A stretch of DNA of 37,152 bases from Armatimonadota bacterium (GTDB lineage Bacteria > Armatimonadota > Zipacnadia > UBA1398 > JAKPQA01), in the NCBI GenBank assembly GCA_029547025.1, contig JAKPQA010000115.1:1-37152 (forward strand), given 5' to 3'. Position numbers and translations under genes: made by a program. This document shows positions 22,529-37,152 of the stretch, piece after piece; position 1 is the first letter of the stretch, and every line of letters begins with the position of its first letter. The notes beneath the pieces are model-generated. The model made no database searches, was not told where the DNA came from, and worked only from the letters and a program-made list of their open reading frames with translations.

Positions 22529-22600
22529 TCGGGCGTAGCTCAATGGCAGAGCACCTGGCTGTTAACCAGGTTGTTGCTGGTTCGAGTCCAGCCGCCCGAG
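22529..22600 (+). tRNA. tRNA-Asn (GTT), integration site of the element
   Basis: Acceptor TCGGGCG (22529-22535) pairs with CGCCCGA (22593-22599), discriminator G at 22600, CCA encoded at 22601-22603. Anticodon GTT lies in CTGTTAA between CCTGG and CCAGG. T-arm GTTCGAGTC. The 3' end is where the integrative element joins. The serine recombinase gene runs antisense into this tRNA as far as its D-arm. Confidence 0.95.
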
Positions 22601-24243
22601 CCAGCACTCCTTTGATCACGAACCAGCCGCCGGGGGTGAACAGGGCCCGATCCTACGGGCCTCGCGGCCAGCCAGATGTTCACCCTGTAGGTCCTGGTTC
22701 GTATTTCGCCTCTCCAGGCCCCCGCTTCGGCGGGGGCTTTTTCGTTCACCCCCTCGCACGACTCCACCACCATCGCCGTCACCAGTGACCCCATCAGCCG
22801 CTTCCGCCCGGCGAGGTCGAGTCCGGGGTACGCCCTGGCGAACTCCACCAGCGAGGTCCGCAGCCCCGTGAGGTCGACGGACCTGCTCCGCAGGCCGTCG
22901 ACCTCACGGTCCAGCCTCTCCAGCTCCAGGAGCAGCTCCCCACGCTGGGCATCCCGCCGCAGGCACTCGTCCTTGAGCACCTCGGGCACCGGCCCCTCCC
23001 CACCGAACACGTCCAGCAGACGACGGAGACGGGCGTCCAGGTGCTGGAGGTCGGAGCTTCGCTTCGTACGGCGACGCTCCAACGACTCCGGCTCCCTGTT
23101 GGCGTCGGCGTCGCTCCGCTCCGCCGCCTGCCGAAGGCGATCGGGGTCTCGGGCGAGGCCCATCAGGATCCGTGCGATCGCCTCCTCGAGCTTGCGGGCC
23201 GGGAGGCGGCGGACGGGGCAGTCGCAGTCCTGGGGGTGCTTGACCACCTCGCTGCACTGGTAGTAGAGGAACCGCTCGCCCGAGGGCCCGGTCTTGCCCG
23301 ACGGGAACGGCGTCATGGTGGACCCGCAGTGGCCGCAGCGGACGAGGCCCTTCAGCAGGTGGACGTGCACGTCACGGCCGTTGCTGCCGATGCGTCGTTT
23401 TCCGTCGGCCGCCGAGTCGATGGCATGGTTGGCCGCCCGCCACGTCTCCTCCGTGACGAGGGGCTCGTGGACGCCGGGGAACAGCTCCTCACCACAGCGT
23501 ATGAGTCCGGCGTAGATCGGGTTGCGTACGATCCCCTTGATACCATCGTGCGTGAACGGCCTGCCGCCGAGCTGGGGATGGGTCGCCTCGGCGGCCCGGC
23601 GGATCTTGGTGCGGTAGCCGCGTGCGTTGGCCTCGTCACGGACCACGCTGACCTGCCCGTGCTCGATGGCGAGGTCGAGGATGGCCCTGATGCCATCGGC
23701 CTCGGTAGGGCTCGGCGTCAGGAGCTGGCGTTCGCGGTCATAGTCGTAGCCCAGCGGCACCATGCCGCCGTTCCACCGACCGGCCTGGGCTCGGGACCTC
23801 ATCCTGAGCTGGGTCCGCTCGACGCAGATGCTCCGCTCGAACTCGGCGAACGACATGAGGACGTTCAGCAGCAGCGACCCGGCCGAGGTGCTCGTGTCGA
23901 AGCTCTGGGTGGCAGCGACGAAGGTCGCTCCGGCCTCCTCGAGCACGCTGAGGAAACCGGTCATGTGACGCAGCGAGCGGCTGACTCGATCACATGCGAC
24001 GGACACCACGACGTCGGTCCGGCCCGAGCGGACATCGTCGAGCAGTCGCCGCATCCCTGGACGGTCCATGTCCTTGCCGGAGAAGCCAGCGTCCTCGTAG
24101 ACCGCCGTGACGGTCCACCCCTTGTCCCTCTGGACCTGGACGTAGTGCTCGCACGTTGTCCGCTGGGCCTCGATGGAGTTCTGGTCGGGGTCGGCGGCCT
24201 CGACGACCGAGACCCTGCAGTAGATTCCGCAGTTGACGGGCAT
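22540..24243 (-). CDS. Large serine recombinase (integrase/resolvase family)
   Basis: A 567-residue site-specific recombinase. The N-terminal resolvase domain has IYCRVSVVE with nucleophile Ser12, EDAGFSGKDMDRPGMRRLLDD, ACDRVSRS, and the connecting helix FAEFERSICVERTQ. Next is a recombinase DNA-binding domain (GGMVPLGYDYD, GGRPFTHDGIKGIVRNPIYAGL), then a zinc-ribbon (LVRCGHCGSTMTP, YYQCSE, DCDC) and a coiled coil from about residue 395. Start ATG 24243 is preceded by GGAGGAAG. The last codons, encoding GWTRTSNNLVNSQ, are antisense to tRNA-Asn, with stop TGA at 22540-22542. The C-terminus in the integrated state is therefore partly host sequence. It very likely catalyses integration at this tRNA. 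Residues from about 397 on are duplicated in inverted orientation at 24428-24886. Confidence 0.92.
   Translation of the reverse strand: MPVNCGIYCRVSVVEAADPDQNSIEAQRTTCEHYVQVQRDKGWTVTAVYEDAGFSGKDMDRPGMRRLLDDVRSGRTDVVVSVACDRVSRSLRHMTGFLSVLEEAGATFVAATQSFDTSTSAGSLLLNVLMSFAEFERSICVERTQLRMRSRAQAGRWNGGMVPLGYDYDRERQLLTPSPTEADGIRAILDLAIEHGQVSVVRDEANARGYRTKIRRAAEATHPQLGGRPFTHDGIKGIVRNPIYAGLIRCGEELFPGVHEPLVTEETWRAANHAIDSAADGKRRIGSNGRDVHVHLLKGLVRCGHCGSTMTPFPSGKTGPSGERFLYYQCSEVVKHPQDCDCPVRRLPARKLEEAIARILMGLARDPDRLRQAAERSDADANREPESLERRRTKRSSDLQHLDARLRRLLDVFGGEGPVPEVLKDECLRRDAQRGELLLELERLDREVDGLRSRSVDLTGLRTSLVEFARAYPGLDLAGRKRLMGSLVTAMVVESCEGVNEKAPAEAGAWRGEIRTRTYRVNIWLAARPVGSGPVHPRRLVRDQRSAGSGGWTRTSNNLVNSQVLCH
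22598..22607. other. Probable att core (left junction)
   Basis: GAGCCAGCAC covers the last tRNA bases, the encoded CCA and four bases more. It reappears inverted (GTGCTGGCTC) at 24877-24886, exactly where similarity between the two recombinase 3' ends stops. That marks it as the likely crossover region. Confidence 0.5.
22718..22742 (+). terminator. Intrinsic terminator antisense to the recombinase gene
   Basis: GCCCCCGC (22718-22725), loop TTCG, GCGGGGGC (22730-22737), then TTTTT (22738-22742): a canonical rightward terminator. It lies 115 bp beyond tRNA-Asn and would end the rRNA/tRNA transcript, while on the other strand it codes for recombinase residues KAPAEAGA. Confidence 0.85.
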
Positions 24244-24427
24244 GTCGCTTCCTCCAGCGAGCGGGCACGGTGGCTCCGTGCCCGAGCTGTTCACCCAGGA
24301 GTTCGTGGTTCGGATACTACCGCGTGCGGGCTGGAGAGTCACGTGGCACGTGTTACGGGACGCCGACCGCCGAGGAATGGGGCTTCGTCGTGGCGGCGTG
24401 CTACGTCCCACGCCGCCACGACGAGAC
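24244..24427. promoter_or_regulatory. Recombinase leader with two hairpins
   Basis: GGAGGAAG (24248-24255 on the minus strand) is the recombinase ribosome-binding site. Upstream in the leader is a hairpin, CGGGCACGG (24262-24270) with CCGTGCCCG (24276-24284). A perfect 16-bp inverted repeat (24385-24400 with 24409-24424, 8-nt loop) ends 3 nt before the inverted recombinase copy. A minus-strand TAGTAT near 24314 is a possible -10, but no good -35 is seen. Confidence 0.5.
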
Positions 24428-24886
24428 CTCCGACCTCCAGCACCTGGACGCCCGTCTCCGTCGTCTGCTGGACGTGTTCGGTGGGGAGGGGCCGGTGCCC
24501 GAGGTGCTCAAGGACGAGTGCGTGCGTCTGGACGCCGAGCGTCGGGGGCTCCTCCTGGAGCTGGAGGGGCTGGACCGTGAGGTCGACGGCCTGCAGAGCA
24601 GGTCCGTCGACCTCACGGGGCTGCGTACCTCGCTGGTGGAGTTCGCGGGGGCGTACCCGAACCTGGACCTGGTCGGACGGAAGCGTCTGATGGGGTCGCT
24701 CGTGGTGGAAATCGTGGTGGAGTCCTGCGGGGGGGTGAACGGAAAAGCCCCCGCTTCGGCACGGGCTGCGAAGGGCGAAATACGAACCAGGACCTACAGG
24801 GTGAACATCTCGCTGGCCGGGAGGGCCGGAGAATCGGGCCCTGTTCACCCCCGGCGGCTAATTCGTAATGGAATCTGTGCTGGCTC
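24428..24886 (+). pseudogene. Inverted copy of the recombinase C-terminal region (arm B)
   Basis: Rightward, the frame encodes SDLQHLDARLRRLLDVFGGE through GPVHPRRLIRN, matching recombinase residues from about 397 to the att core at the same length (153 codons), with about 29 differences. It has no catalytic domain and no start of its own. The frame continues open past the att-core copy into the following small HTH gene. Either this is a remnant of a second related integrase, or an alternative C-terminus that inversion could join to the catalytic part. Confidence 0.85.
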
Positions 24887-25465: not shown

Positions 25466-26377
25466 CTACTCCTCCGGCTCCTCTCCCACGGCCCGCTCCA
25501 GGTGGTTCCGCAGGTCGGACTCCGATGGCCTGGTGTACACGGCCGCCGACGACATGCTGGTCCAGTTCATGATCTGCATGACGTCGGGCAGGGGCACGCC
25601 CATCTCGGCCACGAGCATGCGGGCCAGGCCGTGCCTGCACTGGTGGAGTCCCTTCAGCTTCGCCCGCAGCTCCTGGGGGACGAAACGGGCGAGTCGGCGA
25701 TGCCAGACGTCATGGAGCGTCCAGCGGCTGATGGGGGCGAAGGGGTACTTCTCGCTGGTGAAGAGGGAATCGTGCTGGACCGGCGGCCGCTCCCGAACCC
25801 ACGCCGCCAGTGCCTCCCTCGCCTCGGCGTTGAGGGGCACCGTGTAGCCGCTGGCCTTCCCCTTGGCCCTGTCGTAACTGATGGTGCCGGACCTCGACTT
25901 CAGCGAGACGCCGCTCAGCTTGGCCTCGGAGATGGACGACGACCTCGCCCCGGTCCACATCGCCAGGTAGACGATGGCACGGTCGCGGACGCTCAGCCTG
26001 TCCGCCGCCCTGAAGATCGCCAAGCGTTCCTTCCGGCTGAAGCCGCTCGGGGCGGGCTTCGGCGACTGCGGTACCTTCGGGAAGCGGAGCCGGGTCAGCA
26101 GCTCGATGTTCACGAGCTTCAGGGCGGCCCTCAGGCTGCCCAGCTTCCGCTCCGTCGTGTTGGCCCTGCACCGCCTCAGCAGGAAGGCCTTGTAGTCGTT
26201 CAGGTCGGCGTTGTTGAGGCCGAGGTCGTCGGGGTTCGGGTCCTCGCCGTACGTGCCCCGGTACCACTCGCAGAAGTGGCGAGCGTCCAGGACGATCCGT
26301 TCCCGACTCGACTCCATCAGGTCCTCGTCGGCCAGCCTCTCCCGCAGCACCCGCAGGAATCCGCACTCCGAGTCCAT
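25466..26377 (-). CDS. Tyrosine recombinase/phage-type integrase
   Basis: A 303-residue site-specific recombinase from ATG 26377, preceded by GAGGTGATCGGG; an in-frame ATG at 26395 adds six residues. The N-terminal SAM-like core-binding domain (about 1-105) has a CEWYRGTYG helix. The catalytic domain holds the Arg of TGARSSSISEAKL (about 145), a beta-hairpin Lys in DRAKGKASGY (about 172-174), HxxR in LHQCRHGLARML (His245, Arg248), Trp272 in MNWTS where His/Trp is expected, and nucleophile Tyr281 in AAVYTRP. All catalytic residues are therefore present. It may handle resolution or excision, since a serine recombinase already sits at the tRNA. Both types together in one element is notable. Confidence 0.88.
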   Translation of the reverse strand: MDSECGFLRVLRERLADEDLMESSRERIVLDARHFCEWYRGTYGEDPNPDDLGLNNADLNDYKAFLLRRCRANTTERKLGSLRAALKLVNIELLTRLRFPKVPQSPKPAPSGFSRKERLAIFRAADRLSVRDRAIVYLAMWTGARSSSISEAKLSGVSLKSRSGTISYDRAKGKASGYTVPLNAEAREALAAWVRERPPVQHDSLFTSEKYPFAPISRWTLHDVWHRRLARFVPQELRAKLKGLHQCRHGLARMLVAEMGVPLPDVMQIMNWTSMSSAAVYTRPSESDLRNHLERAVGEEPEE

Positions 26378-26479
26378 CCCGATCACCTCGTGCATGGCAA
26401 CTGTGGGGTCAGTTCTCCGCCTTGCGGCTCCCGGATTCGGTCACACCGATCACGTTATGCGGGAGTCTGCCCCACGTTG

Positions 26480-26817: not shown

Positions 26818-29409
26818 TCAGTCGTCCGCCGGGTGCCAGGCGTCCTCGATGACCTCGAACACGCTCCAGGTGTTCCCATCGCCGTCGGGCTCCCTGCGGT
26901 CGCCCTTCCTGACGGTCCGCAGCAGGGGGAGCACGGGGGGCGTGCCGCCCTCGGCCCAGCCCTCGGCGATCGCCCCCACGAACCTCGACGGCCAGCGGGT
27001 GCCGACGAGCTCACCGTGGTGCAGCAGCATCCGGCGGGAGAGCTCGGCCAGGACGATGCGGACCAGGCCGTCGGCCGAGTTCGGGTGGCACCACAGGAGC
27101 TGGGTCAGGGCGGCGGAGATGCGGGAGGGATCCTGGCGGGAGACGAGGGAGCAGTAGGCCGAGGAGAGGGAGGCGATGGAGTCCAGGTCGGACGGGGACA
27201 GCCTGCGGCGGCTGCCCCGAGTGGGAGGGCGTCGTCCGGGAACGGGACGGCGGAAGCGGCCCTCCCGGAGGAGGGCCAGGTACCAGCCGACCTTGTGGTG
27301 GACGTCGGACTCGAGTTCCAGCTCGTCCTCGGACGACTCGCAGCGGGCCATCACGGCCCTCACGAGGGCGTCCCAGTCCGCCTCGCCCATCGCACCACGG
27401 CGTGAGACGATCCCGGCCTCGACGAGGGCGGCGATGATGCGACCGAGCAGGTTGTGCTCCTCCACGAGCACGGCGTTGGTCTGCCCCGCCGGGATCGTCC
27501 CTCGTATGGCGGCGTCGACGACCGCCCCGATCAGGTCGTCCCGGTCCAGGGGCGAGTTCAGGGCGGCCTCGATGGCCGCCGTCGTGTCCTCGTCGTCCTC
27601 TTCCCAGATGCGGAGCCGGTCGTCGTCGGCCGGGGTGTCGGCTGCCGAGTCCGCCGCGTCCGTGGTGCCATCGTCCCGGTCCCGAGGGTCCGGACCCGGT
27701 GGTGGTGGAGGTCCCAGCGGAGGCACATCGATGCCGTGCTCGACGGCTGGGGCCGATTCTCGTACCAGGATGGGTGCGGCGGCCGAGGGCTCGCACGGCC
27801 ACGGGCACTCGCGGTGCAGAGACGTCAGGTAGGCCGCGAGGCCCTCGTCGACCGGCACCACCGGTGGACGCATGGACTCCCAGTCGATGCCGTCCCAGTC
27901 CACGCGGCGGGGGTCGAACTCGCCGTCGCCGAACCTCTCCGCCAGTGCGTCCGTCAGCACGCCGATGGCCTCGGGGTCGGACCTGTGGTGTCTGCGGCCG
28001 AGCTCGTCGCACACCGCCCTCCGGGCGGCGAGGCGGTTGGCCTCCCGGTGCCGCCATCGGCGGTGCTCCTCCTGGAGGGCACGCAGCCCCTCCAGGCGTG
28101 CCGCCCTGGCGGGGGCGTCGGCGACCCATCGCTCCCTCGCCTCGATGGCCTCCCGCCGGGCCCGTGCGGGGTCGTGACCCAGGGCCCGCAGGTCCGCATC
28201 GGTCCACAGCCCCACCGAGGGCTCCCAGGTCGGGTGGTGGAGCAGCCACTCGTCGCGGCTGCGGGTGCGGGGGAGGATCCCGTGCAGCCAGGTCATCCCC
28301 CAGACGGGCACGTCGTGACGCAGCTCGAGGGCGTGGTACCACAGATCCTCCTCGACGTCCGTCCACCCCAGACGCCGCCGGTCCCTCGGCTCGTAGAGCA
28401 CCCCCTGCCACGGGGTGAAGGGCCTCGCCCTTCCGTCACGCAGTTCACGGGCCAGGTCCGCCAGGGAGCCCGCTGGGGCGATGCTCATGGTGTGGGCGTG
28501 CTGGTCCGGCAGGGGCTCCGCCGTGGCCTCGTCGATCCACAGGGCGTGCTCGGGCCCGTTGGGCGAACCCCAGGTCCGGCAGCCATTCTGGGACAGCGGG
28601 TCGACGTCCAGCGTCAGGTGCGGCCACGACCATCGACGGCCACCGGGGAGCACGGACAGCCCCACGACCTCGCAGGTGAACCAGATCCTGTTCCTCAGTG
28701 CGTTGAGCACGTTGCTCAGGTCCTCGGGCGTGCCCGGCTGCTCGAACCAGCACTGGAGCCAGAATCCTCCCGACCCGGAGTCGAGGATGTGGAGCTCGGT
28801 GACTCCCAGCACCCGCCGGGCGGCGAACGTCACGGCACGCACGGCTCGTCGACGCTCCGCTGCCGGGAGGTCGTGGAAGGGGACGTCACCATCTCCTCGC
28901 ACGTCGACGTCCAGGAAGAGGCGGTGGTGCTCGGGGACGTCGGCGTAGATGGGGTGGACCCCCTGCGTGCCCAGCACCTGCCGGAGCCAGAGGCCGCGAT
29001 CGTGGATCGCCTGCACGGGGAAAGCCCTGCCGTACCGGAACACGGTGTGGCACCTGTGCATGGCATCGTGCGTGCACAGCGTGTAGGGCATGTTGGCCCT
29101 CCACGGCGGGCCCGACCGGTGCTGCGGCGGGACGTAGAGCTCGATCAGGCGGTCGGCCAGGGCGTGGGCCAGGGGGTGGGCGGCCCGATCATCGAGGGCC
29201 TTGGCGTAACGGGACCTCGGCACGCCGTGGGCGTCGAGGGCGAACCCCGGCTCGATGGCCGAGTGCCAGGGGTGCGTGTTCCCGCCCCCCGACCGGGGGG
29301 TAGGCTTCGGGATCCTGACGGCCGGATCGTCGGTGCGTGAATGGGTGTGCCCGAGGCCGATGGCCTCGGGGAGGTCCGTGCACCGCTCCGAGCCGTGCGG
29401 TGGTGACAT
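26818..29409 (-). CDS. Archaeo-eukaryotic primase (AEP)-like replication protein
   Basis: About 863 residues from ATG 29409; an upstream frame start at 29499 would add 30. An AEP-like core is visible. Motif I is HRLFLDVDV (Asp167, Asp169). A motif II-like stretch, ILDSGSGGFWLQCWF (211-222), has Trp217 where a His is usual. Motif III is LTLDVDP (Asp268), followed by NGCRTWGSPNG, like the R-x-GS segment of primase-polymerases. A His/Cys-rich stretch lies just before (TLCTHDAMHRCHTVFRYGRAFPV). The middle (about 400-520) is Arg/Ala-rich helical, then an acidic linker with PPPPPGPDPRDRDDG, then a helical C-terminus. No helicase Walker motif is seen. It is probably the element's primase or initiator (inference). 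Confidence 0.5.
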   Translation of the reverse strand: MSPPHGSERCTDLPEAIGLGHTHSRTDDPAVRIPKPTPRSGGGNTHPWHSAIEPGFALDAHGVPRSRYAKALDDRAAHPLAHALADRLIELYVPPQHRSGPPWRANMPYTLCTHDAMHRCHTVFRYGRAFPVQAIHDRGLWLRQVLGTQGVHPIYADVPEHHRLFLDVDVRGDGDVPFHDLPAAERRRAVRAVTFAARRVLGVTELHILDSGSGGFWLQCWFEQPGTPEDLSNVLNALRNRIWFTCEVVGLSVLPGGRRWSWPHLTLDVDPLSQNGCRTWGSPNGPEHALWIDEATAEPLPDQHAHTMSIAPAGSLADLARELRDGRARPFTPWQGVLYEPRDRRRLGWTDVEEDLWYHALELRHDVPVWGMTWLHGILPRTRSRDEWLLHHPTWEPSVGLWTDADLRALGHDPARARREAIEARERWVADAPARAARLEGLRALQEEHRRWRHREANRLAARRAVCDELGRRHHRSDPEAIGVLTDALAERFGDGEFDPRRVDWDGIDWESMRPPVVPVDEGLAAYLTSLHRECPWPCEPSAAAPILVRESAPAVEHGIDVPPLGPPPPPGPDPRDRDDGTTDAADSAADTPADDDRLRIWEEDDEDTTAAIEAALNSPLDRDDLIGAVVDAAIRGTIPAGQTNAVLVEEHNLLGRIIAALVEAGIVSRRGAMGEADWDALVRAVMARCESSEDELELESDVHHKVGWYLALLREGRFRRPVPGRRPPTRGSRRRLSPSDLDSIASLSSAYCSLVSRQDPSRISAALTQLLWCHPNSADGLVRIVLAELSRRMLLHHGELVGTRWPSRFVGAIAEGWAEGGTPPVLPLLRTVRKGDRREPDGDGNTWSVFEVIEDAWHPADD

Positions 29410-29539
29410 CTTCGATCCCTGCCTCCGCGATCCGTCGGGGGAGCGGAGGGGCGAGGGGCAGGGAAGGGGCCCCGCCGTCCGCTCCGCCCGAGCTCCCAAC
29501 CCGGGGGCCTATGCCGGGCGGTGGACCGTGATGCGTCGG

Positions 29540-30163
29540 TTATAGGTGGCCGGTGTCATGGCGTTCGACCTGCGTCATGTCGTCGGGGCCGCCGCCGGAC
29601 GCGGCCACGCACACGCCCGTCGGCTCCTCGCCGAGGTCCCCTGGCCGCGGCAACGGGAGCGAACTCACGAACTCCCGAGCCCGCCGGTAGCCCATCGTCC
29701 GCTCGGACAGCAGTGCGTCCGCGAGTGCGAGGATCGCGGGCCAGTTGACCGACACCAACTCCTCGGCACGGACGCGGCACAACCGATAGTGTGCGTCGAT
29801 CTGCCTGTCATCGTCGCTCAGCCACGACAGCATCTCCTTAGCCTTGGCCTCGTCGGCCGTGGCCGTTCCACGCCCCAACCTGACGCCATCGGACCTCGCC
29901 GCCCGCCTCTCGGCGATCCCACCGGCGAGCGAGGAGACGACCGAGTCCTCGATGGCCCTCTCCGCGGCCAGTCCCCTTTCGACATCCTGGCCGACGCGGT
30001 GCATTGGCAGCTTGCGGTACAGCACGCACCCTTGGTCCTCTTCGGTCGGCTCGAGCGTGACCGAGATGAACCTCCGCTTTTTCCTGATGCTGACGACCAC
30101 GTGTGCCGCCTCGTGGATGGCGGTGTGGCGTTCGGCCTCTGGCGTCCGTCGTCTGCGTCTCAT
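29540..30163 (-). CDS. Stand-alone M41-like zinc metallopeptidase
   Basis: A 207-residue protein with the zinc-binding HEAAH (17-21) in RHTAIHEAAHVVVSI, then LEPTEEDQGCVLYRK, SSLAGGIAERRA (78-88) and TATADEAKAKEMLSWL, where Asp104 matches the third zinc ligand of FtsH-type peptidases. Order and spacing fit peptidase family M41, but there is no AAA+ ATPase domain or membrane segment, so it is a small soluble relative. AGGAGGT is well placed before ATG 30163. Stop is TAA. It could process an element or host protein; the substrate is unknown. Confidence 0.72.
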   Translation of the reverse strand: MRRRRRTPEAERHTAIHEAAHVVVSIRKKRRFISVTLEPTEEDQGCVLYRKLPMHRVGQDVERGLAAERAIEDSVVSSLAGGIAERRAARSDGVRLGRGTATADEAKAKEMLSWLSDDDRQIDAHYRLCRVRAEELVSVNWPAILALADALLSERTMGYRRAREFVSSLPLPRPGDLGEEPTGVCVAASGGGPDDMTQVERHDTGHL

Positions 30164-30350: not shown

Positions 30351-31178
30351 TCAACCCTTCAGGCCGATGTCGTCGCAGGCGTCGAGCATCCGCTCCAGGG
30401 CCTCACAGGCGTACCCCAGGTCCAGCTCGACGCCGATGCCCTCCACGCCCAACTCCAGGGCCGCCAGGAGCGTGGTGCCGATGCCGCCGAACGGGTCCAG
30501 CACCTTCCCGACCCGGTCGAGGCCGTGGAGCTCGATGCACATCCTCGGGAGCTCGGCGGCGAAGGTCGCCGGATGGCGGCCCCGCTGCCTGGCCCTGTCG
30601 TTGATCGTCTCGTAGGGCACGAGCCAGACGTTGCCCCGGCAACGCAGGTCGGTGTCCCTGTCGGACCTGTCGATGTTGCCCTTGTCCTGGTAGGGCACGC
30701 CGATGGCGAGACGGTCGATGGGCACGTCCCCGGTCTTGGTGAATTGGAAGATGTGCTCCCAGGTCCTGTTCAGGTAGCGGGGGGAGTTCACGGGCTTGAA
30801 GTGACCGATCGTCCGCTCGCCGGTGTGGATGGACTTCACCCAGTTGATCCGGTTCTGGAGCACCCAGTCGCGGCGGAACACGTTGGCCACGTCGAGATCG
30901 ACCCAGGGGTCGGTCGAGGTGAAGCCGACGTTCAGGAACAGCGATCCCCGATCGGACAGGACGCGGAGCAGCTCCTGGGACACCCGCCCGATCCAGCCCA
31001 GGTAGTCCCTCCGCTCGAGGTCGTCCGAGTAGGACCGATAGCCGATCTTGATGTTGTAGGGTGGCGAGGTCACGCAGACATCCACCGAGCCGCTCGTGAT
31101 GCTTGGCAGCACCTCCATGCAGTCGGCGGCGACGTACAGCAGCGACTCCCGGATGCCCTTCAGTCTCACGCTCAGCAT
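30351..31178 (-). CDS. DNA methyltransferase (N4/N6, beta-type)
   Basis: A 275-residue amino-methyltransferase that would transfer methyl from S-adenosylmethionine to adenine N6 or cytosine N4 in DNA. The catalytic motif IV is TSPPYNI (37-43) and the AdoMet-binding motif I is DPFGGIGTT (228-236), the beta arrangement with IV before I. FQFTKTGD and GNVWLVPYE are also family features. GAGGAGA lies 8-10 nt before ATG 31178. No restriction endonuclease is adjacent, so it behaves like an orphan methyltransferase, as often carried by phages and integrative elements for self-protection. Confidence 0.9.
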   Translation of the reverse strand: MLSVRLKGIRESLLYVAADCMEVLPSITSGSVDVCVTSPPYNIKIGYRSYSDDLERRDYLGWIGRVSQELLRVLSDRGSLFLNVGFTSTDPWVDLDVANVFRRDWVLQNRINWVKSIHTGERTIGHFKPVNSPRYLNRTWEHIFQFTKTGDVPIDRLAIGVPYQDKGNIDRSDRDTDLRCRGNVWLVPYETINDRARQRGRHPATFAAELPRMCIELHGLDRVGKVLDPFGGIGTTLLAALELGVEGIGVELDLGYACEALERMLDACDDIGLKG

Positions 31179-31272
31179 CTCGATGGTCTCCTCTCGGCGG
31201 TGCGGTATGCGTTGCTGGGTCGGACGCCGCCCCGGCCGATACCGACGTCATGGGGTCGGGTCGGCTCCCGGT

Positions 31273-31327
31273 GGTCGGCGGATTGTACGCCGGACTCGGC
31301 GGCGATGACACACACCGTCATGGCGAA
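31273..31327 (-). promoter_or_regulatory. Conserved upstream element, copy 2
   Basis: GGTCGGCGGATTGTACGC (31273-31290) differs at one base from copy 1, and CCGTCATGGCGAA (31315-31327) at one base from its partner. The spacing is 24 nt here and 26 nt in copy 1. It lies about 100 nt before the methyltransferase start. Confidence 0.55.
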
Positions 31328-31440
31328 TCCGGTCATGCCACGGCGATGGCGGCCCCCGCCACCGGCGTGCGAGGGCAGGCGGGGTACGCGGCATCCTCCA
31401 AGTGCTCCCCGGCTGCCGACCGCGAGGATGGGCTTCGGTA

Positions 31441-33891
31441 CTACCCGTCCGTTGGCCCGACCTCGACCCGGTGGTAGCGGAAGTTACCGGGCAGCCCCGG
31501 CACGCGGACGGTCCGGCCTCCGCTCCGGTACCCGTACCCCTCGATGGCGGCCCTGACCCTGGGCAGGCAGATCTCCTCGCAGATGCGTCTCCGGTCGCCG
31601 CCACGCCCCTTTGTGATCTCGTTGCTGTTGACCAGGATGAAGCGGCGTCGGCCGCCATCCTCGGCGTTCAACATGAGCAGGGCGTGGGCGGTGGTGCCGC
31701 TCCCGGCGTAGGGGTCCAGGACGGTGGCGTCGGGCTTGTGCCCCACCATCGCGTGGAGGGCCCGCTTCACGGCGTGGACGCTCTTCGGGTAGGAGAAGGG
31801 ATTGAGGCCTATCATCCGCCGCAGGAGCCCCGTGCCGTGGGTCGCCGCGTTGAGATCGGGGCCGAGCCAGACCGTCTTCGGCTGCTCCGTCGCCGACAGG
31901 CCGTCATCACCGTTGGGCCGGGAGAGCTTCTGGATCGTGTGTCCCGACGGGTGGTGACGGCTCGGGGCCAGACGCAGCAGGCCCTCGGCCAGCCAGTCCT
32001 CGAACGTGGCGGGGATGCAGCTCCACGTCCTCGGGTGGCCCTCGGCGTCCACGGGCAGGATCTCGACGGCACAGGCGAAGGGCGTCAGGCCCATGTGGCC
32101 GGAGACGGGATCGGCGTAGATCGGGTAGTACTGCTTGGGGGTCTGATGAGGACGGGAGTTGCCGCCTGTGCGGGTGAGGCCATGCCACGCCAACCGGCCG
32201 TGCTCGTCCTCGTGCGGGAAGCGGGACCGCAGTTCGCCATCGGGCACCCGCACGGGGTTGACCTCGGCCAGGTCGTCTTGCCGGGCGTAGAACAGGTAGG
32301 TCTCATGGTTCTCGTTGAAGCCGTTGCCGTCGAACCCCGAGCGACCCCTCTCGTTGTGGACCACCGTGACCACGCCCAGCCGGTTCCGCCGCCCGAAGAT
32401 GGCGTCAGCCACGCTGCCCAGGTTGAAGAGCTGGACGTGGTCGATGGTGACGCAGATGGTGCCGTCCGCCGTGAGCAGTTCCCTGGCCAGCCGCAGCCTC
32501 TCGGCTACGGACTGAACCCACTCGGCGTCGCCGAAGGAGTTGCGGTAGGACTCGGTGGTCCCCGTGTTGTACGGCGGGTCCACGAAGATGGCATCGACCA
32601 GCCCGGCGTGGGTCGGCAGCAGAGCGTTGAGTGCATCGAGGTTGTCGCCCTCGATGATGGCACTCACCGGCAGCCCTGGGTGCCGGACGTGGTGGTGCGA
32701 CTCGACGGGCACGAGCACGGGGGTAGTCGCACCCTCGGCATCGTCGGTCTGGGTGCGAGGCAGCACGGATGCCCCGGGGGATCGGGGGCGGTCGGTGCCG
32801 ACGAGGTCATGGTCTCTCCGCCCCGTGACTGCGGTGTCGGTCTCGACCTCGCTCGCCCGTTCGCTCACGGCATCCAGCAGCGGCCGCAGGGCGAGGGCGA
32901 CGTGTTCGGCCAGGGGAGGGGGGATGGCGTTGGCCACCTGGTCCTGCTGCCGCCGGACGCTGCCCTCGAGGGTGAATGTATCGGGGAACCCCTGCAGCCT
33001 CGCCATCTCCCGCACGGACAGGAACCTGTCTTCGGACGGGTGGATGTGGGGCTGGCCGTGGTTGCCCATCGTGGTGAAGCCCGGCCTGTCGGGCCAGAGG
33101 CGGCGGCAGCCCCCGGTGAACCTGGCGTTGAGCGGCTCGCCGTGCGACAGTGCGGAGATCCTGGCCTGCAGCTCGGCCCCGGGCACGGGCCAGTCGTGGT
33201 TCGGCAAGGCCCCCTGGGGCAGGCGGCGAAGGTCACCGATGGCCGCGTCCACGCTCCGGTGAAACGGCTCAGCGAGGATCGGGGCCGGATACGGGGTCTG
33301 CCCGCACGGGGTGGCGATCACGATGGCCCGCTTGCGGTTCTGCGGCACGCCGTAGTCGGCGGCGTTGAGTATCTCCAGGCTGACGCTGCCGAGGCCCGCA
33401 TCGGCGAGGGCGGCGGACAGCCAGCGGCCGAAGGCCCCATCGTGAACGGTGCCGATGGGTGGCACGTTCTCGATGGCCACGGCGTGGGGCATCAGCAGCT
33501 CGACCACTCTGGCGAGCTGTGTGAACAGCCAGTTGCGGGCATCTTCGGCCCTCTGACCGCCGTTGGTGGAGAAGCCGGGACAGGGCAGGCCCGCACAGAT
33601 GACGTCCACGTCCCGCCCGCAGACGGCGTCGACGATCGCGTCATCCGTCAGCTTCTCCACCGCCGACTCGAGCAGGGGCACGCCCGGGAAGTTGGTGCGG
33701 AAGGTCTCCGCTGGCCAGTGCACGGACTCGATCCCCAGCAACGGCAGGTACCCCGCCGCCTGGAACCCGAGGGTGAACCCGCCGCAACCGCAGCAGAGGT
33801 CGACCACGGTGTAGGGGTGCGACGTCGAGATCGATGTCGTGTCGACCCACAGCGGCTCGGACCAGATGGGGGCTGCGTCGGACTTCGCCAT
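31441..33891 (-). CDS. Fused DNA methyltransferase: C5-cytosine domain plus N6/N4 Mod-like domain
   Basis: An 816-residue fusion. The N-terminal C5 domain (about 25-345) has motif I VVDLCCGCGGFT, motif IV GLPCPGFS with catalytic Cys104 (Pro instead of Gln follows), ENV (141-143), QNRKR (184-188), a recognition region and motif X QVANAIPPPLAEH. After a linker of about 65 residues, a type III Mod-like domain has GDNLDALN, VDPPYNTGTTESYRNSF (438 on) and DPYAGSGTT (about 726), ending GNFRYHRVEV. ATG 33891 overlaps the upstream stop as TGATG, so translation is coupled. GTG 33900 is a less likely start. One protein could thus modify cytosine C5 and an amino group at two sites. No Res subunit is seen. 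Confidence 0.9.
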   Translation of the reverse strand: MAKSDAAPIWSEPLWVDTTSISTSHPYTVVDLCCGCGGFTLGFQAAGYLPLLGIESVHWPAETFRTNFPGVPLLESAVEKLTDDAIVDAVCGRDVDVICAGLPCPGFSTNGGQRAEDARNWLFTQLARVVELLMPHAVAIENVPPIGTVHDGAFGRWLSAALADAGLGSVSLEILNAADYGVPQNRKRAIVIATPCGQTPYPAPILAEPFHRSVDAAIGDLRRLPQGALPNHDWPVPGAELQARISALSHGEPLNARFTGGCRRLWPDRPGFTTMGNHGQPHIHPSEDRFLSVREMARLQGFPDTFTLEGSVRRQQDQVANAIPPPLAEHVALALRPLLDAVSERASEVETDTAVTGRRDHDLVGTDRPRSPGASVLPRTQTDDAEGATTPVLVPVESHHHVRHPGLPVSAIIEGDNLDALNALLPTHAGLVDAIFVDPPYNTGTTESYRNSFGDAEWVQSVAERLRLARELLTADGTICVTIDHVQLFNLGSVADAIFGRRNRLGVVTVVHNERGRSGFDGNGFNENHETYLFYARQDDLAEVNPVRVPDGELRSRFPHEDEHGRLAWHGLTRTGGNSRPHQTPKQYYPIYADPVSGHMGLTPFACAVEILPVDAEGHPRTWSCIPATFEDWLAEGLLRLAPSRHHPSGHTIQKLSRPNGDDGLSATEQPKTVWLGPDLNAATHGTGLLRRMIGLNPFSYPKSVHAVKRALHAMVGHKPDATVLDPYAGSGTTAHALLMLNAEDGGRRRFILVNSNEITKGRGGDRRRICEEICLPRVRAAIEGYGYRSGGRTVRVPGLPGNFRYHRVEVGPTDG

Positions 33892-36755
33892 CACAGGCAC
33901 CCCCCGGCTGCCACCTCGGTCAGGTCATCCGACTCGTCCCAGGCGGTCCCGGCGGGTACCCGCTCGCACGGGTCCGCCTCCGGACGCAGGTCGCCGCTCA
34001 GTTGACGGACAGTCCTGCCCAGGGCCTTGAGGGCGTTCTCGGCGTGTTGCGGGTACAGCTCGCAGCCGAGGAACGACCTACCCAACCGGAGGGCCACGAT
34101 GCCCGTGGTGCCGACCCCCGCGAACGGGTCGTAGACCACGCCCGGCCGTGCCCCCTCGGCGATGTCGGTCCAGCCGACGGACTCCGGCTTGCGTGGGATG
34201 TAAAGGGAGCCGGTGTCGTTGCGGCCCTGCCCACCGTCGACCGGAAGTCCGGTCTGCGTGTACTTGCCCATCCGGCGGGGGCCCTTGCCGTCGTCGTACT
34301 CGACCATCTCGGTCACCCGCTGCGGCAGCGAGCCATCGGCATTGACCCACAGCGGGCAGGTCAGGGCGATGGGGATCTCGCAGACGATCGGGGGCATGGG
34401 GGCCAGATGGGCCCTCCCGCTGCGGTCCGGCCCGAAGAGCCACACGTCCGGCGGGATGCGACCGTCGACCACGGTGGGAAGCACCATCCGGTCGGCTGAC
34501 AGGTACCGCTCGCCGTCACCGTTCAGCCGTGGGATCAGGTGGGCACAGGGGTCGTACCACGGGTCACTCGTGCGGCTGAATCGGAACAGGTACTCCCACC
34601 CGTTGCCGTTGAGCCGCCAGTAGACTCTCTCCGTCATTGTCTCGCCGTGGGTGGTACCGTCGGGCAGCAGGGCGGACTTGCACCAGGCCACCCGGTCCAG
34701 CAGCTTCCAGCCGCGGCCCTCCATCTCCAACACGAACCGTTCCGGTATGCCGAGGAGCACTCGATCCCGCCGTGTGTCCCGCAGGTTCACCCAGCAAGAG
34801 CCCAGCGGGTGCAGGGGGATCGAGTCGAACACGTCGCAGAGGGTCTCGATGTACTCCTGCGGGGTCCGCTCGTGGCCGATCTCGAGCGGGGAGTGCCCGT
34901 AGGTCTTGACCCCATAGTAGGGGGGCGAGGTCAGTACGCAGTGGACCTGCCGATCGAGGGTGCGGAGGTGCTCACGGACGTCGCCGTGGACGACCTCGTA
35001 CCACTGCCGGTCCGTGGACGGGAAGGGTGTGTGGGGTCCACGACGGATCGGTAGGCCACTCGCCTTCCTCTCGGTCCGCTCCAGCTTCCCGTGGATGGCG
35101 AGACCACAACGGAGGGTGCAGCCCTTGCAGCGGGAGTGGACTCCGCCACTGGGCTGCTCGAAGGTCCCGTCGGCCAGCCGGACCACGTAGTCGTCGGGGC
35201 CGCCGTCCTTCGACGAGACGAACTCGAGGGCCCGCTTCTTGCCATCGTGGCGGTTGCCGGAGCAGGGGCCTGCCTCGTTCACGTGCAGCACCGGCGGGCA
35301 CTGAGACCGGCCACGCCGATGCGGCTCCTCGATGATGCGGTCCTCGCCGACGAGGGCGACGGCCCGCTCGGCGACGGGGCCGTTGTCCCAGTCGCAGTCC
35401 GTGACCACCCAGACGACCGTGGGGATGCCCCACTCCAGGAACCTCTCGATTGCCGCGAACCTCAGATCGAGCTCTTCCGGCGGAAGACACGCCGACACCG
35501 AGTGCCCGACGACGACGTTGTCGCAGGCCGACAGCCAGGCCAGCATCGCATCGGATGGCTGGAACCGATCGGAGCAGATCGTGGCGAAGGACTGGTCGGG
35601 ATTGCTCTCACACCAGACCTGTAGGATGCCCAGACAGATGGAGAGGTCGCCGATCGAGCCCTCGCAGTCCACACGCCAGGCCATCACCTCGTCCCTAGGG
35701 TCCTGCGGCACCCGGTCGCCCAGGCTGGCGTCGCCGTCGGCGGGGAGGGTGACCCGCACGAGGCCGTCGAACAGGCCGTCGGCGATGACGTCGGTGAGCC
35801 CGGACTCCGATCGCACGTCGTCGGAGGAGTGCGAGCAGGAGCCGAGGATCCCCATAGCCCCCGCCGTCCTCCTGTCGCCATCGGGCCTGATGAGGGACCT
35901 GTCGGAAGGCTTCGCCCGTCGGACGGGCACGTGGGCGATGGGCGTCCCCGCCTTCGTGATGCGGACCACCTCGGGTCCGAGCCACTCCGCCCCGAGCTGC
36001 CCGGGCTGGAGTGCTGCGATCTCGTCGAGGGAGAGGTTCGGCGGGACCTCCACCTCGTCTGCGTCCGATGGCGTCCACGCCGACCTCGCCAGCCCGATCT
36101 CCCGGAGGGCCTCCGGGATCACGGCCACGTCGGCGTCCGGGCGTCCGGAGATGTGGCGGGTCAGGGCCCGCTCTGCCCGCAGCAGGATCGTCTCCGGATC
36201 GGGCGGCGTCCACCGCTGGATCCGCCCTGCCTCCTTCGGCACCCTTTGCAGTTCGCCCGAGGCGATCTGCTCGGCGATCCGCCGCTGCTCCGGTTCGGGG
36301 CAGCGGGACAACCGGTCGAGGTCCGACTGCCTGCGTGCCACCGGCGTCGACCGGATCTGGTCACGGACGTCCTGCGGGATGGCATTGGCGATCCGGACGA
36401 GGTACTGCACGGTGCCGGGGCTGCAGCCCATCCGGCTCGCCGTGGCGTCGGCGAACGACGGCGGACGCGACTCGAGTTGCGTGCCACGTCGCACGTCCCG
36501 CATCATCTCCGAGCTGCCGTACCTCACCGAGGGGTTCAGGGCCTCGTAGATCTGCTTGCGGCGAGCCAGGGCCTCGCCCAGCTCCAACGACGTCAGAGGC
36601 TGCACCTCGATGTTGGCGTCGATGGACGCCAGCTCGGTGCGGAGCTCGTCGAGGTCGACGACCCGCACCTCGATCTCGGTCCAGCCCAGCAGCTTGGCGG
36701 CCTCGAGCCGCAGCCTGCCGTCCACGAGTCGCACGTCCCCCTTGACCGGGGTCAC
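33891..36755 (-). CDS. ParB-like/DNA methyltransferase fusion (N-terminus cut by a stop codon)
   Basis: The open frame from GTG 36755 encodes 954 residues, beginning inside a ParB/sulfiredoxin-type domain (VRLVDGRLRLEAAKLLGWTEIEV) followed by a ParB helix-turn-helix (about 104-126, SRMGCSPGTVQYLVRIANAI). The middle (about 300-560) holds RVDCEGSIGDLSICLGILQVW and a Cys cluster (487, 498, 543, 546, 550), possibly metal binding. The C-terminal beta-type methyltransferase has TSPPYYG (609-615) and DPFAGVGTT (876-884). The first part of the ParB domain is present upstream in the same frame but separated by TAA (36771-36773). A minus-strand TATACC seven bases before the GTG could allow a leaderless transcript. 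Stop TGA overlaps the next gene. Confidence 0.85.
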   Translation of the reverse strand: MTPVKGDVRLVDGRLRLEAAKLLGWTEIEVRVVDLDELRTELASIDANIEVQPLTSLELGEALARRKQIYEALNPSVRYGSSEMMRDVRRGTQLESRPPSFADATASRMGCSPGTVQYLVRIANAIPQDVRDQIRSTPVARRQSDLDRLSRCPEPEQRRIAEQIASGELQRVPKEAGRIQRWTPPDPETILLRAERALTRHISGRPDADVAVIPEALREIGLARSAWTPSDADEVEVPPNLSLDEIAALQPGQLGAEWLGPEVVRITKAGTPIAHVPVRRAKPSDRSLIRPDGDRRTAGAMGILGSCSHSSDDVRSESGLTDVIADGLFDGLVRVTLPADGDASLGDRVPQDPRDEVMAWRVDCEGSIGDLSICLGILQVWCESNPDQSFATICSDRFQPSDAMLAWLSACDNVVVGHSVSACLPPEELDLRFAAIERFLEWGIPTVVWVVTDCDWDNGPVAERAVALVGEDRIIEEPHRRGRSQCPPVLHVNEAGPCSGNRHDGKKRALEFVSSKDGGPDDYVVRLADGTFEQPSGGVHSRCKGCTLRCGLAIHGKLERTERKASGLPIRRGPHTPFPSTDRQWYEVVHGDVREHLRTLDRQVHCVLTSPPYYGVKTYGHSPLEIGHERTPQEYIETLCDVFDSIPLHPLGSCWVNLRDTRRDRVLLGIPERFVLEMEGRGWKLLDRVAWCKSALLPDGTTHGETMTERVYWRLNGNGWEYLFRFSRTSDPWYDPCAHLIPRLNGDGERYLSADRMVLPTVVDGRIPPDVWLFGPDRSGRAHLAPMPPIVCEIPIALTCPLWVNADGSLPQRVTEMVEYDDGKGPRRMGKYTQTGLPVDGGQGRNDTGSLYIPRKPESVGWTDIAEGARPGVVYDPFAGVGTTGIVALRLGRSFLGCELYPQHAENALKALGRTVRQLSGDLRPEADPCERVPAGTAWDESDDLTEVAAGGCL

Positions 36756-36770
36756 CAGGATGGGGTATAG

Positions 36771-36872
36771 TTAGCCTATGGACTGGAGGCTGTCCGACAT
36801 TCCCCGGACCCTCTCCGGGTCCAACGCACGACGTGCAACGTCCACGACGATCTCCCCAACGCTCAGCTTCAT
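36771..36872 (-). pseudogene. N-terminal piece of the ParB-like domain, ended by in-frame TAA
   Basis: ATG 36872, preceded by AAAGGAG, encodes MKLSVGEIVVDVARRALDPE, then RVRGMSDSLQSIG, then TAA. Reading on in the same frame gives LYPILVTPVKGDVRLVDGRL, so the two pieces together make a complete ParB N-terminal domain. CAA (Gln) to TAA is the simplest explanation. The proper gene would be 33891-36872, 993 residues. Confidence 0.85.
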
Positions 36873-36984: not shown

Positions 36985-37013
36985 GGTACATTGGCGACGG
37001 TCGCCAATGTACC
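36985..37013. repeat. 29-bp palindrome with single-base centre
   Basis: GGTACATTGGCGAC (36985-36998), G, GTCGCCAATGTACC (37000-37013): perfect 14-bp arms. It abuts the stop codon of the leftward frame at the window end, so it could be a terminator, an element end or an operator. Confidence 0.75.
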
Positions 37014-37152
37014 TAATGACCTTTGCGCTTTAGGTTGATGGTCGTGAGATCCAGGAGTCCACAGTGCTTGATGAAGTTCAGGCCATGCTTGACGCGGCGG
37101 ATGCGACGTTTGCCGCAGGCGATCTGTGCGGTGAGCTCGCCCAGGCTGTCGG
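37013..37152 (-). CDS. C-terminal end of an unidentified basic protein (partial)
   Basis: The frame enters from beyond the window and ends at TAG (37013-37015). The 45 visible residues include DSLGELTAQIACGKRRIRR and VKHGLNFIKHCGLLDLTTI, ending NLKRKGH. The basic tail and the adjacent perfect palindrome would suit a transposase at the edge of an insertion sequence, but no catalytic motif is visible, so this is only a suggestion. No start can be given. Confidence 0.4.
   Translation of the reverse strand, partial: DSLGELTAQIACGKRRIRRVKHGLNFIKHCGLLDLTTINLKRKGH

Follow-up and report, generated by a model that had tools for sequence, protein, structure and literature searches.

The stretch of DNA analysed here, referred to as the window, is one whole contig (C101, 37,152 bases) of an Armatimonadota draft genome (6.3 Mb in 369 contigs, 96%-complete), and it raises the question of what four methyltransferase (MTase) domains, carried by three consecutive proteins with no recognisable restriction enzyme beside them, are for. 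An earlier note on this DNA had offered anti-restriction self-methylation, control of replication or partition by ParB-targeted methylation, or an undescribed modification-dependent system as possible answers. Self-methylation emerged as the best supported of these three options, given the element context, a shortened Mod-like half in one of the proteins and a precedent in a Bacillus cereus prophage, while no positive evidence was obtained for the last. We lean, with modest confidence, towards reading the island as anti-restriction cargo, a set of orphan self-modification genes carried by an integrative element at a tRNA-Asn gene.

The three genes lie in a row on the minus strand, at 36872/36755-33891 (gene 1), 33900-31441 (gene 2) and 31178-30351 (gene 3), as had been described. 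The count of four MTase domains was likewise borne out, with Pfam recognising N6_N4_Mtase in each protein (E 4e-16, 7e-23 and 7e-40) and a C5 DNA_methylase in the second (2.5e-48), and with all four domains also supported by PHROGs, NCBIfam and PADLOC. Third-position GC of the three reading frames is 0.90-0.94, the same as in the real genes of the window; together with the domain scores, this value rules out chance ORFs. The amino-MTase motifs are intact in all three proteins (TSPPYY/DPFAGVGTT, DPPYN/DPYAGSGTT and TSPPYN/DPFGGIGTT), as are the C5 motifs of gene 2 (PCPGFS, ENV, QNRKR and ANAIPP); as a rule, DPPY goes with m6A and SPPY with m4C. Furthermore, three of the seven PF01555 matches in the genome fall within these 4.6 kb, a clustering that is difficult to put down to chance. 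The proposed lack of a nuclease stands for the cargo, in which none was recognised by Pfam, PADLOC, NCBIfam or PHROGs, but it is valid only up to the contig end at 37152.

The left 22.5 kb of the window comprises ordinary genes (phosphotransacetylase, glycoside hydrolase, ROK regulator, ABC transporter) and a complete rRNA operon, directly 3' of which stands tRNA-Asn (22529..22603, plus strand; ARAGORN and Rfam), the likely integration site of the element. Beyond the tRNA follow, in order, a serine recombinase, a tyrosine recombinase, an 893-aa protein, a 207-aa HExxH protein and the three MTase genes, the two recombinases at tRNA-Asn placing the latter on a mobile element. The large serine recombinase (22540..24411, minus strand; Pfam Resolvase/Recombinase/Zn_ribbon, PHROGs integrase at 4e-99) extends on the opposite strand into the 3' part of tRNA-Asn, and the tyrosine recombinase (25466..26395, minus strand; Pfam 4e-18) is 55% identical by BLAST to one in another Armatimonadota MAG (contig G250:C322). 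The 893-aa protein (26818..29499, minus strand), which matches no family or PDB entry, is possibly a primase-polymerase-like replication protein, as suggested by weak motifs read by eye; a weak relative of it (28-31% identity over 108-173 aa) adjoins the 55% recombinase in G250:C322. In that contig (L041), the tyrosine recombinase and the 893-aa relative look like the core common to a family of Armatimonadota integrative elements. The translated 207-aa protein (29540..30163, minus strand) has no match in Pfam, NCBIfam, PADLOC or PHROGs and contains HEAAH (HExxH) and SSLAGGIAERR, putative motifs resembling those of M41-type metallopeptidases; single-sequence structure models of this protein and of the middle domain of gene 1 were of low confidence (pLDDT 36-38).

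From tRNA-Asn to the contig end, the window comprises the left part of an integrative element but not its right end, since the assembly breaks off within IS630-like sequence, namely the end of an insertion sequence (37013..37152, given without strand) that runs to the contig end and is a multi-copy repeat, an identical sequence also terminating contigs C108 and C110; a diverged copy (L044) adjoins an IS630-like transposase ORF, assigned by eye. A search for att duplication gave other tRNA-like matches only, and neither a second att copy nor the far element end was found. Positions 22598-23056 and 24428-24886 form a 459-nt inverted repeat (88%), which corresponds to the 3' part of the serine recombinase gene in inverse orientation, starts at the 3' end of tRNA-Asn and has a copy joined to a small ParB/SopB-HTH-like ORF; it may have been left by a second integration event, or may be a segment capable of inversion.

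Gene 1 (33891..36872, minus strand; translation, Pfam and PHROGs) combines ParB_N, an HTH-like stretch recognised by eye, about 300 residues matching no family, and a beta-class amino-MTase domain (about 34032-34946), whose motif IV, TSPPY, would be compatible with m4C or m6A as its mark. Its true start is the ATG at 36872, which is preceded by the Shine-Dalgarno sequence AAAGGAG. Codon 34 is an in-frame TAA (36771-36773) within ParB_N, and the frame is open again for 954 codons from a GTG at 36755, before which no Shine-Dalgarno sequence was seen. As sequenced, the gene is broken or dependent on reinitiation, the TAA being a recent lesion, an assembly error or a codon bypassed by reinitiation; the gene is probably inactivated here, or yields only the MTase part by reinitiation. 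Of the ParB-methyltransferase fusion that had been proposed, the two domains do share one frame, but ParB_N is crossed by the TAA: Pfam sees it only when the stop is read through (E 8e-5; 23.0 bits against a gathering cut-off of 26.3, hence below it), and nothing without readthrough. Independently of Pfam, PHROGs ParB-like families match the uninterrupted part at 3e-20. Two C5 MTase matches in G250 were likewise reported with one stop within the aligned stretch.

The middle domain of gene 1 has no Pfam match and no viral-contig relative, and searches of phages and plasmids returned no match to a paralogue of it; within Armatimonadota, its one other occurrence is a paralogue elsewhere in this genome, adjacent to an Hma-type helicase. 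This paralogue (L019, G000:C225), 40% identical, adjoins an HmaA-type helicase, a GxxExxY-type PDDEXK protein and a DUF1156 MTase, and has a Cys-rich stretch (PRCDEACF...ACYAN) absent from the window copy. Upstream, between the insertion sequence and gene 1 and ~112 nt from the ATG, lies a perfect inverted repeat, GGTACATTGGCGAC-G-GTCGCCAATGTACC (36985..37013, no strand; 14+1+14, 29 nt), a candidate operator of gene 1 or ParB site. A comparable repeat arose in 0 of 40 Markov resamples of the window, and no second site in the genome comes within 2 mismatches of its 21-nt core; three other long hairpins are present in the window.

Gene 2 (31441..33900, minus strand; Pfam, PADLOC, PDB and alignment) joins a C5 MTase (residues about 18-350) to an m6A-type MTase that resembles type III Mod (residues about 405-819). 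It overlaps the end of gene 1 (TGATG), so translational coupling is probable and gene 2 may be affected by the TAA of gene 1. The N6 half is specifically type III Mod-like, with PADLOC MTase_III at 7e-48 and, in a whole-protein query, PDB matches to the Mod structures 6k0w (3e-26), 7dsu and 4zcf, EcoP15I Mod scoring 4e-17; with these type III Mods (EcoP15I Mod, PMC4490356; PDB 6k0w, 7dsu, 4zcf) it shares a core of ~400 residues, DPPYNTG ... TRD ... DPYAGSGTTAHA. Alignment with two Mods that have helicase-like Res genes alongside (from an Arthrobacter plasmid and from G231) revealed that gene 2 retains the whole MTase-TRD core, whereas its C5 domain occupies the place of the Mod N-terminus and the protein stops ~100 residues short of the Res-paired Mods at the C-terminus. 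In EcoP15I, the N-terminal domain of Mod helps it dimerise and the C-terminal domain contacts Res (PMC4490356). Since gene 2 is without both of these parts, a conventional Res partnership appears unlikely. Moreover, no adjacent Res helicase-nuclease is present on either side of gene 2 within the window, and a whole-genome search with PF19778, the type III nuclease domain, was one in which the positive controls were silent too. The label of type III R-M system was rejected for gene 2, which has the Mod-like core with its TRD, on the grounds that the Mod termini are missing and no Res is found in the window. A published survey found a nuclease close to every type III MTase but not to most type II ones (PMC10333322), which makes the Res-less Mod-like domain the less usual part of the fusion. 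C5 domains related to that of gene 2 occur in G250 at 43-45% identity, one of them stand-alone and another behind the C-terminal end of an amino-MTase fragment that adjoins a serine recombinase; these varied states indicate that the fusion partner varies.

Gene 3 (30351..31178, minus strand) is a stand-alone beta-class amino-MTase with motif IV TSPPY (Pfam 7e-40; PADLOC MTase_II, 285 bits). Its top PDB matches are m4C MTases, and, as far as can be read from the protein, its mark would more likely be m4C than m6A. It is 53% identical to an MTase of a Paracoccus plasmid that has no annotated REase directly adjoining it.

Relatives of the three genes indicate how rare their combination is. A survey by tblastn with the domains of the window, in which distant versions would be missed, covered 227 loci of relatives (80 + 67 for the gene 1 MTase, 80 for the C5 domain); a second MTase of these kinds was nearby in 29 of them and three or more in 3, a C5 MTase stood together with an amino-MTase in 9, and neither the ParB nor the middle domain of gene 1 was found nearby in any of the 227. 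Neither gene 1 nor gene 2 has a full-length relative in the 291 Armatimonadota genomes, plasmids or phages searched, megablast of genes 1-2 against plasmids gave none, and single-protein scans of genome contigs with gene 1 and of viral contigs with genes 2 and 3 yielded no relatives. Orphan methyltransferases on phages and other elements are already known, but fusions in this combination are out of the ordinary. A stand-alone MTase in G250 (G250:C94) shares 48% identity with the MTase domain of gene 1, and one on an Acidobacteriaceae contig shares 37%; the remoter relatives of this domain (mostly 27-31%) are stand-alone proteins of about 350-460 aa. The Acidobacteriaceae contig (L050) encodes an integrase together with three MTases (N6/N4, D12 and C5) whose genes are broken or partial, and is apparently another decaying MTase-rich element.

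The neighbourhoods of these relatives provide the main argument for a different origin, namely that the island is a decayed or incomplete R-M locus in which the restriction part of at least one MTase, for example McrB/McrC, has been lost or lies beyond the insertion sequence, a reading we regard as unlikely. About half of 30 sampled relatives of the gene 1 MTase adjoin McrBC: among the 104 proteins flanking them, 14 match McrC, 12 AAA_5 (McrB-like) and 2 NotI, these figures being counts of proteins and not of loci. Such neighbours are the strongest evidence that an MTase of this type can belong to a restriction system, and an association of McrBC with beta-class MTases, ~30% identical to the gene 1 MTase domain, is already known (PMC11090510). 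Across Actinomycetota (L051, L053, L055, L059 and others), a beta-class MTase convergent with McrC and an AAA_5 McrB-like gene recurs, an arrangement that looks like McrBC-based R-M. The premature stop in gene 1 and the IS630-like insertion just upstream would also fit decay. Unlike the McrBC-associated MTases, however, gene 1 is fused to ParB; neither McrB nor McrC was found in the window, and McrC (PF10117) had no match anywhere in the whole 96%-complete assembly, the control being positive in one genome. Further evidence against a decayed R-M locus is that the closest relatives, in G250:C94 and Acidobacteriaceae, are without adjacent McrBC as assembled, on contigs that are short or end nearby, and that gene 2 is without the Res-contacting end.

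Two further alternatives assign the central role to the ParB part of gene 1. In one, which we consider quite improbable, the ParB-like domain is itself the nuclease, a nicking ParB-MTase whose companion MTases protect self, so that the island would be a restriction-like or replication-initiating unit; PMC5512222 (citing Xu et al. 2012) and PMC3459991 report nonspecific nicking by the ParB domain of BCE_0392, and the ParB region of gene 1 keeps, by eye, an R-x-R stretch (VDGRLRLEAA), yet nicking is known in one distant homologue only and the TAA precludes a full ParB domain unless it is read through. The other, to which we give a slim chance, is the ParB-steered control raised at the outset, with gene 1 binding the palindrome at 36985-37013 and methylating or regulating its own promoter and the replication or partition region of the element. 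The perfection of the repeat, the uniqueness of its core and the ParB_N plus HTH architecture of gene 1 would suit such a role, but there is one site only, no ParA was noticed among the annotated genes of the window, and the palindrome could equally be the operator of a regulator or a hairpin left from an upstream gene; other long hairpins occur in the window. The label of partition system was rejected for the island.

The self-modification reading is preferred because the MTase domains and their motifs are present, the recombinases stand at tRNA-Asn, the Mod-like half is ~100 residues short, the genome has no McrC and the B. cereus pair BCE_0392/BCE_0393 offers a precedent, and also because related C5 MTases in G250 occur in other states, one beside a serine recombinase, the 55% recombinase lies beside a relative of the 893-aa protein in that second Armatimonadota MAG, and the Acidobacteriaceae contig holds an integrase with fragments of three MTases. 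Against it stand the interruption of gene 1, which leaves the set not fully intact as sequenced, the many gene 1 MTase relatives that adjoin McrB/McrC or a NotI-like enzyme, and the fact that the upstream side of gene 1 ends at the insertion sequence and contig end, with host restriction surveyed for two families. Under self-modification, the three genes would put m5C, m6A and probably m4C at several motifs, on the DNA of the element as well as on the host chromosome, and these marks would let the element survive restriction on entering a new host and might help its retention there. Gene 2 would modify without restricting, its core and target-recognition region being kept, with C5 where Mod would have its N-terminal dimerisation domain and with no counterpart of the C-terminal region through which EcoP15I Mod touches Res; the ParB part of gene 1 would probably have localised or regulated its MTase via NTP-dependent DNA binding. 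A more elaborate version, which we regard as a long shot, has a ParB-like clamp loading at the palindrome that precedes its operon and spreading the amino-MTase, while the C5-Mod fusion and gene 3 add their marks, giving a nuclease-free camouflage in cis in which m5C, m6A and m4C would cover the incoming element against several restriction types.

Known systems offer partial parallels. A prophage of Bacillus cereus ATCC 10987 encodes, under successive locus numbers, the ParB-MTase BCE_0392 and the multispecific C5 MTase BCE_0393, and both methylate DNA when expressed in E. coli, the former producing m6A in vivo and the latter m5C (PMC3459991). Likened by description and not by sequence, they resemble the pair in the window as a ParB-MTase with a C5 MTase on a mobile element; however, BCE_0393 is characterised as m5C only, whereas the C5 domain of the window is fused to a Mod-like MTase, and the window adds a third MTase and the extra domain of gene 1. 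Fusions of a ParB-CTPase fold with an N6_N4 MTase are enriched in prophages (PMC12704722) and, like gene 1, unite ParB_N and PF01555 in one mobile-element protein; unlike them, gene 1 has an additional ~300-aa domain without a Pfam match and a stop inside ParB_N. Orphan MTases occur widely, and those in prophages frequently go unexpressed (PMC4752239).

If active, the island would enable one small element to place up to three chemically distinct marks on DNA; as a compact means of self-protection, it could serve to transform bacteria that are proficient in restriction, comparable to the MoDMP approach (PMC3459991). A C5-Mod-like fusion without the parts that contact Res would, moreover, illustrate one route from a subunit of a restriction system to a pure modification enzyme, and the locus extends ParB-MTase cargo to Armatimonadota, a phylum whose mobile elements are little known.
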